Below are positions 5,072 to 8,407 of a stretch of DNA of 64,000 bases, piece after piece; position 1 is the stretch's first letter, and each line of letters opens with the position of its first letter. Both the position numbers and the translations under genes were made by a program. This DNA comes from Sulfuricella sp. T08 (GTDB lineage Bacteria; Pseudomonadota; Gammaproteobacteria; Burkholderiales; Sulfuricellaceae). The notes under the pieces were generated by a model that was not told where the DNA came from, did not search any database, and worked only from the letters and a program-made list of their open reading frames with translations. Where the stretch lies: positions 62,328 through 126,327 of the forward strand of contig NZ_DF967548.1 in the NCBI RefSeq assembly GCF_000971475.1, read 5' to 3'.

Positions 5072-6109
5072 TCATGGTTTTCTTGTGCCAGGAATGATCA
5101 GCCGTATCAAATACTGGACCAATCTTAGTGGTTTGGTAATTTGCCAAGAAGCCGTATTTTTGACTCGCTTTATTTCTGAATGCAGCAAAGCATTCTCCGA
5201 TTCAAGGCGGGCAAGATTGGTGCATGAATCTTGATTTTTTGTCTCACTAGACCTAAGCAGTTTTGACAATGGAGCAACGATACTGACGAGTTCTACGGTC
5301 TGAGCGCGCATACGATCAAGTTTCGCTGGGTCTGGCGATTTAGCCAAAAGGAGTTCGAACACTTCCTGAGCCAAGCGGCACACCGGATGGTCAGGCAGTG
5401 TGGCATTGTCGACATAATGTCGCAGAGAAGGGTCGATGAATGCCTCAATGCTAGGGGCGGCATCTTCTACGGTGACAGGCCAAGTCAAACCGAGGGTTTG
5501 GCCGATTGAAGCCACAGTTTTCCGCCAATCAGCCAATAGGCATTCATAATTAACGAAAGCTCGTGGCTGGCCTCTAGTCTGGTATTCAGCTTCCAGCATG
5601 TGGGTGAGCCACAGCAGGCAGGATGTTACTTCTGAGAAATTGTCTCGTTTACGTAAGGAATGCGCCACTTCGGCTGGTTTCCGTAGCATGAGGATAAACA
5701 GCGGTTGGCAGGCCAGTTCACGGAACACCTCCTGCCACAGAGGCAACAGGCGGCACATGCGTGGGTCTTTGATGAGCCAAAGGGGGCTGTTGCTAAAGTC
5801 ACGGCGCAGCACGCTAACGATCCTGTCGCGAAAAACGTCAACGGGGGGTGAACGCCACCACTGGTCGGGCAAAGAGGTTTCTTCGTACCATGAGGAATCG
5901 AATGCCTCCAGTATCTGATCGTGAATGGTCACAACTTCTGCATGCTCCCAGAAGCCTTTGGGGTTAATACCTTCCATCGCTGGCAGGAGAGAGTAGCCAG
6001 GATGAATGCCCAGCATGTGCAGCACGCCAGCCAATGCAGAGGTGCCGCTGCGGTGCATACCCAGAACAACAATGCCGGTTTTTGGCGCGAGTTCTTGTAT
6101 CAAATTCAC
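5072..6109 (-). CDS. Sulfotransferase family protein
   Basis: 345 residues from a GTG start preceded by AGGAAA at a good distance. The N-terminal GIVVLGMHRSGTSALAG is the 5'-phosphosulfate-binding loop of PAPS-dependent sulfotransferases, and LIKDPRMCRLLPLW is the 3'-phosphate-binding segment. The C-terminal 60 residues look coiled-coil-like (SENALLHSEIKRVKNTASW) and resemble tails of glycosyltransferase-associated proteins. The setting among glycosyltransferases and an ABC polysaccharide exporter suggests it sulfates a glycan, but the substrate is inferred from context only. Confidence 0.82.
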   Translation of the reverse strand: MNLIQELAPKTGIVVLGMHRSGTSALAGVLHMLGIHPGYSLLPAMEGINPKGFWEHAEVVTIHDQILEAFDSSWYEETSLPDQWWRSPPVDVFRDRIVSVLRRDFSNSPLWLIKDPRMCRLLPLWQEVFRELACQPLFILMLRKPAEVAHSLRKRDNFSEVTSCLLWLTHMLEAEYQTRGQPRAFVNYECLLADWRKTVASIGQTLGLTWPVTVEDAAPSIEAFIDPSLRHYVDNATLPDHPVCRLAQEVFELLLAKSPDPAKLDRMRAQTVELVSIVAPLSKLLRSSETKNQDSCTNLARLESENALLHSEIKRVKNTASWQITKPLRLVQYLIRLIIPGTRKP

Positions 6110-6213: not shown

Positions 6214-7488
6214 TCAGGGCATGAGGCCTGAAAATGAGGAGGATATATCCACTGTTCCTGATCGTATTGAACCATTTTCCTGTGTGATTTTGAACATGGC
6301 TGCATCAAGCACTCTGTGCAAATACACTTCGCCCTTGTCAGGCATAAGACAGGTAATGCCAGCATTAAGAAAATAAGTACCCGATAGCAGGTTGCATCGA
6401 AAACGAAACCGTTGAGAAAGGGTTGTGCCACACTCAACCGAAATACCAGTGTCCGCGGGGTGAGAGAGAAGACCGCCTAGTTCGTAGCCTGTAACTGTTT
6501 TGATCATCATGCCGAAACGTACGCATTTTGCGGGCACGTTGAACTGGGCTTCATAAGCATAGATGTATTCCTCACCACTATGCAGCAGATTTACACATTT
6601 CCCATCAAGGGAAAGAATGCGAGGATTGATGATTTGCGCACCCAAGGAGGTGTATGAAACGGTACTTTCCGGAATTAGTGTTTGGTCAAAGCACGCCGTT
6701 TCTTGCTCTTGGTAAGCTAGCTTAGGGTTATTTTTCACCTCATCTGTGGCGTACGGACGATTGAGATTTTTCAAATAACTCGCTGAAACAAACTTGGGAT
6801 TGCCGATTACAGTGAGTTTACCTTGTTCCAGAAGCAATGCATGATCACAGAGTTCAACCACGGATGCCATGTTATGAGAAACGTAGATGATGGTACATCC
6901 CTGCTCGCGGATTTGGCGAATGCGTTCAAAGCATTTTCGCTGGAATGGTTCATCACCCACAGATAGCGCTTCGTCAATAATTAAAGTATCAGGTGCACTG
7001 TGGATTGCGGTGGCAAATGCCAATCTCACATACATTCCACTGGAATAAATCCGCACTGGCTGGTCAATGAATTCGCCGATGTCTGAGAAGGTGGCGATGT
7101 CGTCGAAGCGTCGCACCATCTCTTTTTTGGGGATACCCATGACAGCCCCCTGAAAGTAAACGTTTTCTCGGCCAGTAAACTCCGGATTGAAGCCTGCCCC
7201 CAGCTCCAGCAGGGCCGATACCCTGCCATTGACTTCAACCTCACCCGAGGTGGGTTTGAGAATACCGCAAATCAATTGCAACAGAGTGCTCTTACCCGAC
7301 CCATTTCGCCCAATGATGCCAACGGTTTCCCCTTTTTTGATTTCAAAGGAAACGTCCCGCAAGGCGGTGAATTCTCGATGAAAGCGCATTCTGCCAAAAG
7401 TAAGCGCCTGCTTGATGCGGTCGCCAGGGTGGCCGAAGATACGGTAGGTCTTTGTGAGGTTTTTGACAGAGATGGCGATTTCGTTCAT
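6214..7488 (-). CDS. wzt: Polysaccharide ABC exporter ATPase (Wzt-like) with C-terminal carbohydrate-binding domain
   Basis: 424 residues from the ATG giving MNEIAISVKNLTKTYRIF; an upstream in-frame TTG would overlap hepT and is less likely. The nucleotide-binding domain (about 1-240) has Walker A GRNGSGKST, signature YSSGMYVRLAFA and Walker B LIIDEAL. The C-terminal 170 residues match the Wzt_C type of jelly-roll domain that recognises the chain terminator of O-antigens (LGAQIINPRILSLDG, then HSGEEYIYAYEAQFNV). With Wzm it exports a finished glycan across the inner membrane. Unusually, its permease partner is not adjacent: a MntA-HepT pair lies between them, with the hepT stop only 7 bases before this start. 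Confidence 0.92.
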   Translation of the reverse strand: MNEIAISVKNLTKTYRIFGHPGDRIKQALTFGRMRFHREFTALRDVSFEIKKGETVGIIGRNGSGKSTLLQLICGILKPTSGEVEVNGRVSALLELGAGFNPEFTGRENVYFQGAVMGIPKKEMVRRFDDIATFSDIGEFIDQPVRIYSSGMYVRLAFATAIHSAPDTLIIDEALSVGDEPFQRKCFERIRQIREQGCTIIYVSHNMASVVELCDHALLLEQGKLTVIGNPKFVSASYLKNLNRPYATDEVKNNPKLAYQEQETACFDQTLIPESTVSYTSLGAQIINPRILSLDGKCVNLLHSGEEYIYAYEAQFNVPAKCVRFGMMIKTVTGYELGGLLSHPADTGISVECGTTLSQRFRFRCNLLSGTYFLNAGITCLMPDKGEVYLHRVLDAAMFKITQENGSIRSGTVDISSSFSGLMP

Positions 7489-7495
7489 GGAATAC

Positions 7496-7912
7496 TTAGA
7501 GCCCAGTTTTCTGGATAACAGCCTGAGCAAACTCCTTGAAATCAGTTAGGTGACTGGTTGCGATGGCATGAACGATTTGCCAGTTGATTGCTTCATAATT
7601 ATGGACGGCGATATTGCGAAAACCCAAGGTTTTTTTCATGCGTATTGCCAGTTCGGTGTTGATGCATCCAAGCTCGGCAAGCACGTCGAAGGTTTGACCC
7701 ATTGTGGCAGGAGGAGGAGTGTCCTTGCCGGCGATAAGGTGCGCTCCGATGTCAACGCAGAGTTGGATGGCTCGAGTCAGATTGAGCGCGAGGATATCTT
7801 GCAAGTCGACATCTCTGCCAAGGGTTTCGGAGGATGGCGGACATTTTTCCTGGATTCGCTGAAGGCAACGGCGAAGAGACTCCAGTTTTTGTTCGATCAC
7901 TTCTCTATCCAT
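7496..7912 (-). CDS. hepT: HepT-like toxin (HEPN RNase, DUF86)
   Basis: 138 residues, mostly helical. The HEPN active-site motif R-x4-H-x-Y is intact as RNIAVHNY (R99, H104, Y106). In characterised HepT proteins Arg and His cleave RNA, and the Tyr is the residue AMPylated by the MntA antitoxin. Its start overlaps the 3' end of mntA by 16 bases, the usual antitoxin-first arrangement. The family assignment is firm from the motif; toxicity here is inferred. The cassette lies inside the wzm-wzt exporter operon and reads in the same direction, so it is probably co-transcribed with it. Confidence 0.9.
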   Translation of the reverse strand: MDREVIEQKLESLRRCLQRIQEKCPPSSETLGRDVDLQDILALNLTRAIQLCVDIGAHLIAGKDTPPPATMGQTFDVLAELGCINTELAIRMKKTLGFRNIAVHNYEAINWQIVHAIATSHLTDFKEFAQAVIQKTGL

Positions 7913-8289
7913 GCGCTGCGCCTTTCCCTGAGAATACGACGATAGTACGGCATGAAATCCGCCTCATCGAATACGTGCCTCTTGATGAGTTCAGCATAGA
8001 GGCTATCTTTACCGAGGAGGCGCTTCCCGTGCCTGAGAATCTGCCCCAGCAGTGGTTCGCCGACGGTCTGAAGATCGATTAAGTCAACAGGACAGCCTGT
8101 GGATTCTGCAAGTTCCGCCATCAATGACATTGATTCTTTAAACCCAAGAGGCTGCCCCGCATCAATTGCCAGATCGACATCGCTGTCATGATGCCCTTGG
8201 CCGGTGGCCAACGAGCCAAAAAGAATGGCCAGCCGAACTTCGGGATGGTTTGCCAGGGTGGCCTGAATTAGGGTCTCGATGGTTGTCAT
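7897..8289 (-). CDS. mntA: MntA-like nucleotidyltransferase antitoxin
   Basis: 130 residues. The minimal nucleotidyltransferase signature GS-x10-DxD is complete: GSLATGQGHHDSDVD, with G25, S26, D37 and D39. Family knowledge: MntA proteins add AMP units to the HepT active-site tyrosine and so neutralise the RNase. The C-terminal part (GEPLLGQILRHGKRLLG) is the helical segment common to this family. It starts 118 bases downstream of the wzm stop. That gap holds no clear promoter and nothing else I can identify. Confidence 0.9.
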   Translation of the reverse strand: MTTIETLIQATLANHPEVRLAILFGSLATGQGHHDSDVDLAIDAGQPLGFKESMSLMAELAESTGCPVDLIDLQTVGEPLLGQILRHGKRLLGKDSLYAELIKRHVFDEADFMPYYRRILRERRSAWIEK

Positions 8290-8407
8290 TTATCTATGGC
8301 TGCGCAGTATTTGTGTAATGGCTAGTTTAACGATGAACAGTTTCGCATTTCTCGCTGGCATATGTCATTCTTTCCTCAGCATTTTATGCAGTGATGTGGC
8401 CGCCTTC

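Follow-up and report, generated by a model that had tools for sequence, protein, structure and literature searches.

The two genes of a Wzm-Wzt exporter in Sulfuricella sp. T08 are separated by a type VII toxin-antitoxin pair, MntA-HepT, and we consider it probable that this pair is a functional module and a passenger, selfish or addictive, in exchangeable surface-glycan operons. The window analysed here is a whole stretch of 64,000 nucleotides, in which the minus strand reads wzm (9208–8408), mntA (8289–7897), hepT (7912–7496) and wzt (7488–6214). The product of wzm is a 266 aa exporter membrane subunit (Pfam ABC2_membrane, 91.5 bits) with orthologues of 77–91% identity within the genus, and that of wzt is a 424 aa ATPase, counted from its ATG (Pfam ABC_tran and Wzt_C); the ABC-2 membrane subunit and the ATPase with its Wzt_C domain are the parts of a Wzm-Wzt ABC exporter of the O-antigen/capsule type. 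The adjacent or overlapping arrangement that is typical of Wzm-Wzt, and not strictly required, is absent from the window, and unlike in a typical exporter the genes are 919 bp apart and wzt is without its native ribosome-binding site. A 118 bp spacer (8290–8407), whose first bases after wzm are common to the window and the congeners G002 and G006, leads to mntA (130 aa), which overlaps hepT (138 aa) by 16 bp with the antitoxin gene first, and exactly 7 bp (7489–7495) separate the hepT stop at 7496 from the wzt ATG at 7488. An alternative in-frame TTG upstream of this ATG, at 7530, would overlap hepT. An earlier note on this DNA had described the pair as wedged between wzm and wzt, reading in the same direction and ending 7 bases before wzt, and every detail that we checked is correct.

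MntA scores 90 bits against the NCBIfam model MntA_antitoxin (NF047752) and HepT 141 bits against HepT_toxin (NF047751), both with an equivalog cut-off of 60, and both proteins match the Shewanella HepT/MntA structures (PDB 5yep, 6m6u and 7aer). The adenylyltransferase motif of MntA is intact (G25-S26-x10-D37-x-D39, i.e. GS-x10-DxD, plus D69), as is the R-x4-H-x-Y motif of HepT (R99-N-I-A-V-H104-N-Y106), in agreement with the earlier identification of the pair, and both genes are under purifying selection (dN/dS ~0.15 for HepT and 0.14–0.20 for MntA). Judged by its sequence, the pair is an ordinary member of the known type VII family. It shares gene order, overlap, both motifs, size and sequence similarity with the Shewanella oneidensis pair (SO_3165/SO_3166; PMC4621449, PMC7641770) and is of the same widespread, mobile two-gene class as the HepT-like (DUF86)/NTP_transf_2 HEPN-MNT modules (PMC2701414, PMC3710099). 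Among the predicted toxin-antitoxin classes of prokaryotes, HEPN-MNT has been termed the most abundant, with an unclear role, and MntA is reported to inactivate HepT by covalent AMPylation of a toxin tyrosine (PMC7641770). In the window, HepT would be an RNase that MntA disarms by adding AMP to Tyr106.

We compared 189 distinct wzm-wzt pairs drawn from the order, the class and one named GTDB collection. The genes overlap or are no more than 20 bp apart in 129 of them, typically with an ATGA-type overlap, which bears out the earlier statement that they are normally adjacent and are split here. A gap of 21–150 bp is present in 41 pairs, one of 151–300 bp in none, and one of more than 300 bp in 19, a distribution indicating that an insert is mostly absent or else holds at least one gene. 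Toxin-antitoxin genes are found in eight of the 19 inserts longer than 300 bp. Seven of these eight include a minimal nucleotidyltransferase, and they come from the window genome, the congeners G001, G002 and G006, and three other lineages (HGW-Betaproteobacteria-18, Candidatus Propionivibrio aalborgensis and a Methylococcaceae genome; L115, L123 and L162); the eighth has a PIN toxin alone (G067, locus L204). Several of the remaining inserts are glycan-related, with an APS kinase (L125, L128, L158) or a glycosyltransferase (L106). A six-frame scan of 127 loci (1.9 Mb), from two samples selected without regard to HepT, gave nine nucleotidyltransferase domains, three of them in a wzm-wzt gap and two more 0.6–0.9 kb upstream of wzm; counted as five of eight sites, the placement at wzm has p=0.002 if all gene junctions are equally likely. 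The second insert to recur at wzm is the APS-kinase-like gene, which was named from its sequence by eye and is also present upstream of wzm in L064 and L066; it would fit a sulfated surface glycan, and the window also has a sulfotransferase at 5072–6109. In L129 (7130–7956), L123 (7691–8517) and L162 (6863–7704), the nucleotidyltransferase genes that adjoin wzm or wzt, or lie between them, have partners of 159–181 aa that are without a Pfam match and alike by eye, and these are possibly an undescribed HEPN-like partner family.

Within Sulfuricella, the junction is split in four of the five congeners with an orthologous wzm (the window genome counted). The overlap is retained in the fifth, G011, as it is in the relatives G014, G055 and G140, and homology to the overlapping-gene relatives resumes at wzt codons 3–4 beyond the insert. 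The G006 junction has an mntA 85% identical to that of the window with only the first ~32 bp of hepT left, followed downstream by two more nucleotidyltransferases with broken partners and then an AAA-DUF4143 ATPase (AAA_14-DUF4143; L066, 12541–13794), which lies between the decayed nucleotidyltransferases and wzt and has a stop that overlaps the wzt start (ATGA). The G002 junction holds a PIN pair together with a nucleotidyltransferase and its HepT-like partner, and G001 a single truncated nucleotidyltransferase. The same G002 stretch (L065) also has a ParE-like toxin and putative antitoxin between a macB-like permease and wzm (692–1169), which places three different toxin-antitoxin modules in a small region. 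With the exception of the 85% orthologue, the junction nucleotidyltransferases are 20–30% identical to the window MntA, and they span at least four subfamilies. A single ancestral insertion for all of the Sulfuricella cases is unlikely given these dissimilar subfamilies, although the window, G002 and G006 share a left flank. The junction is a recurrent landing site with several occupants already decaying, and the most economical history has the overlap disrupted in this lineage and a turnover of modules that arrived, were replaced and decayed.

The main rival explanation is neutral accumulation, in which frequently recombining glycan loci gather any small module, and MntA-HepT is of no benefit to the locus or the cell and is being lost. 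It is favored by the decayed state of the copies that G001 and G006 have at this junction, by the other gene types that split wzm and wzt (e.g. the APS kinase of L125, L128 and L158 and the glycosyltransferase of L106) and by the presence of other toxin-antitoxin types, PIN (G002, L204) and ParE-like (G002). However, both window genes are under purifying selection with all motifs retained, and the occurrence of toxin-antitoxin genes in eight of 19 split junctions is far above their share of genes, and we view neutral landing as rather unlikely. A quite different proposal is that the pair has ceased to work as a toxin-antitoxin system and that the MNT protein acts in the glycan pathway, e.g. 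through nucleotidylation of a partner. Although nucleotidyltransferases recur in glycan operons, where some lack an intact HEPN partner (G001, G006, L115), the window pair has the full toxin and antitoxin motifs and passes the equivalog cut-offs, and the dissimilarity of the nucleotidyltransferases at one junction (at least four subfamilies) argues against a single pathway role; this proposal is highly improbable.

In relatives with overlapping genes, wzt starts within the 3′ end of wzm behind a strong Shine-Dalgarno sequence (e.g. G011, dG −10.3). The native Shine-Dalgarno survives at the end of the window wzm (dG −8.4) with an ATG at the position of the relatives' wzt start, and this remnant of the ancestral start now opens a 17-codon dead-end frame (8418–8365, minus strand; MRYKKAATSLHKMLRKE and a stop). 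The wzt start in use has a Shine-Dalgarno of dG −2.4, weaker than in all 74 of the 74 overlapped pairs that were measured (mean −6.3, weakest −2.5). The wzt gene has lost its native ribosome-binding site, and because the native Shine-Dalgarno was left behind in wzm and the current one is weak, coupling of wzt translation to hepT is plausible. The suggestion in the earlier note that wzt may depend on passage through hepT is thus plausible; 7 bp alone does not prove coupling, since close spacing is common among operon genes. In G001 and G006 the wzt start also abuts or overlaps a cassette gene, with an overlap of the truncated frame in G001 and an ATGA overlap with the preceding gene in G006. 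Simple scans of the coding strand for sigma-70-like sites gave none in the 118 bp spacer or elsewhere near the cassette, where a weak promoter is possible, and no terminator-like site was detected inside the cassette. The Shewanella pair, in contrast, has its own mapped and autoregulated promoter (PMC4621449), whereas the window pair sits inside the exporter operon. We infer that little more than the two genes was inserted into an overlapping wzm/wzt junction and that this cut wzt from its native ribosome-binding site. Translation of wzt now probably depends on coupling to the hepT stop codon, which lies 7 bp upstream, and the module is probably transcribed with the glycan operon.

The association extends to other surface-glycan operons. 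HepT loci were sampled regardless of context and glycan genes were scored within 4 kb, with a random control of 20 loci only, two of which have a glycan gene in this range. The corresponding numbers are 14 of 24 loci for the window HepT subfamily (p=0.001), 11 of 34 for other HepT subfamilies (p=0.06), and 25 of 58 for the two pooled (p=0.006); about 40% of the window subfamily loci and two thirds of the others have no glycan neighbour within 4 kb. The pair is co-directional with the glycan genes in 24 of the 25 glycan-linked loci, and Pfam counts point the same way, with epimerase-family proteins as 22 of 228 HepT-locus neighbours versus 2 of 127 random-locus neighbours. Of the 73 small nucleotidyltransferases in the family's 22 genomes, 12 are within 3 kb of wzm or rmlC against 0.3 expected, a result whose p-value is not to be taken literally as the test is partly post hoc, wzm and rmlC having been picked after examples had been seen. 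Individual cassettes are found between rmlC and rmlD, 8 bp before rmlD (G048), inside a neuB/pseG-type (pseudaminate-type) operon and overlapping neuB (G015), between wza and wzz (G089), between manC and wzm and followed by a duplicate of the manC 3′ end (G480), and adjoining a CDP-sugar cluster (G020). Placements away from glycan genes include one beside rnr (G008) and a degenerate copy beside xerD (G016). The DNA block shared with the G020 cassette (82% identical) begins 13 bp before mntA and ends with the hepT stop, and no mobile-element ends are visible at it. The duplication in G480 (L265, 5395–7963) is a partial second copy of the manC 3′ end (~78 codons), and it may trace the mode of insertion.

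These placements suggest that the pairs use often-exchanged surface-glycan loci as a home. Pairs do recur between wzm and wzt in related genomes, where the earlier note had proposed to look, and the link to the exporter as such that it had drawn is not supported; we rejected an exporter-specific linkage given the presence of the same modules in rml, wza/wzz and pse-type operons, with some elsewhere. The splitting of surface-glycan operons seen here is absent from the HEPN-MNT surveys (PMC2701414, PMC3710099), and lodging in such operons goes unmentioned in these and in PMC4621449, PMC7641770 and PMC11586414, in which the word polysaccharide is absent, as is glycosyl from the two surveys; a literature search that was mostly without subscription journals found no paper on HEPN-MNT in glycan operons.

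A functional coupling to the exporter would tie wzt to hepT such that export and RNase rise and fall together, with disturbed export or phage attack on the glycan releasing the toxin. The 7 bp junction with its lost ribosome-binding site, and the abutting or overlapping wzt starts in G001 and G006, would be expected of such an arrangement. Against it, members of the same subfamily are found in rml and wza/wzz operons, in pse-type operons and next to rnr or xerD, with no need of an exporter partner, and G006, which has a wzm-wzt insert, has lost the toxin and keeps wzt. There is also no defence or phage link among the PADLOC results and phage records: HepT matches nothing in 50,697 phage records and has no PADLOC hit, and MntA hits only the candidate models PDC-S09 and PDC-M05A. 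HepT thus has neither a known defence family match nor a phage-linked context that would place it in anti-phage defence. We conclude that exporter coupling is very unlikely, and that a direct tie to export or phage defence, as put forward earlier, is supported by nothing that we found. Plasmid matches of the window subfamily do not exceed 40% identity and come mostly from Bacillaceae, and with no phage match a phage or plasmid origin of the subfamily was also rejected.

Returning to the passenger module, such elements would repeatedly settle co-directionally in exchangeable surface-glycan operons and travel with them, may resist replacement of the operon, and would decay in time. The same-type Shewanella pair stabilises a plasmid and inhibits growth (PMC4621449), and by analogy the window pair could stabilise a transferred glycan locus, as the earlier note had proposed; the recurrence in glycan operons is consistent with this. 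Its further proposal, that loss of the locus would free the toxin, fares less well, because AMPylation of HepT is covalent (PMC7641770) and locus loss need not release active toxin, so that the classic post-segregational picture may not apply. The tolerance of toxin loss by relatives argues against strong addiction. More tentatively, the MNT-HEPN class as a whole may prefer surface-glycan operons, be expressed by way of them and, as addiction elements, bias recombination at phage- and host-selected loci; we consider this broader reading rather unlikely, but if it is true then toxin-antitoxin genes hold some of the diversity of surface glycans in place. A preferred home in these operons would give HEPN-MNT a testable role in retaining, or hitchhiking on, the loci under the most selection by phages and hosts. 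Toxin genes within glycan clusters can also make cluster deletions look harmful for reasons unrelated to the glycan.

The window genome has a second MntA-HepT pair, between rmlC and rmlD of a dTDP-rhamnose operon (C76:105000–118000; L077, 4168–8224), which is 31% identical to the first. Two further nucleotidyltransferase/HEPN-like pairs are in tandem with it between rmlC and rmlD, and a RelE-like pair and another nucleotidyltransferase follow rmlD. The same rmlC/HepT arrangement is present in G002 (L319).
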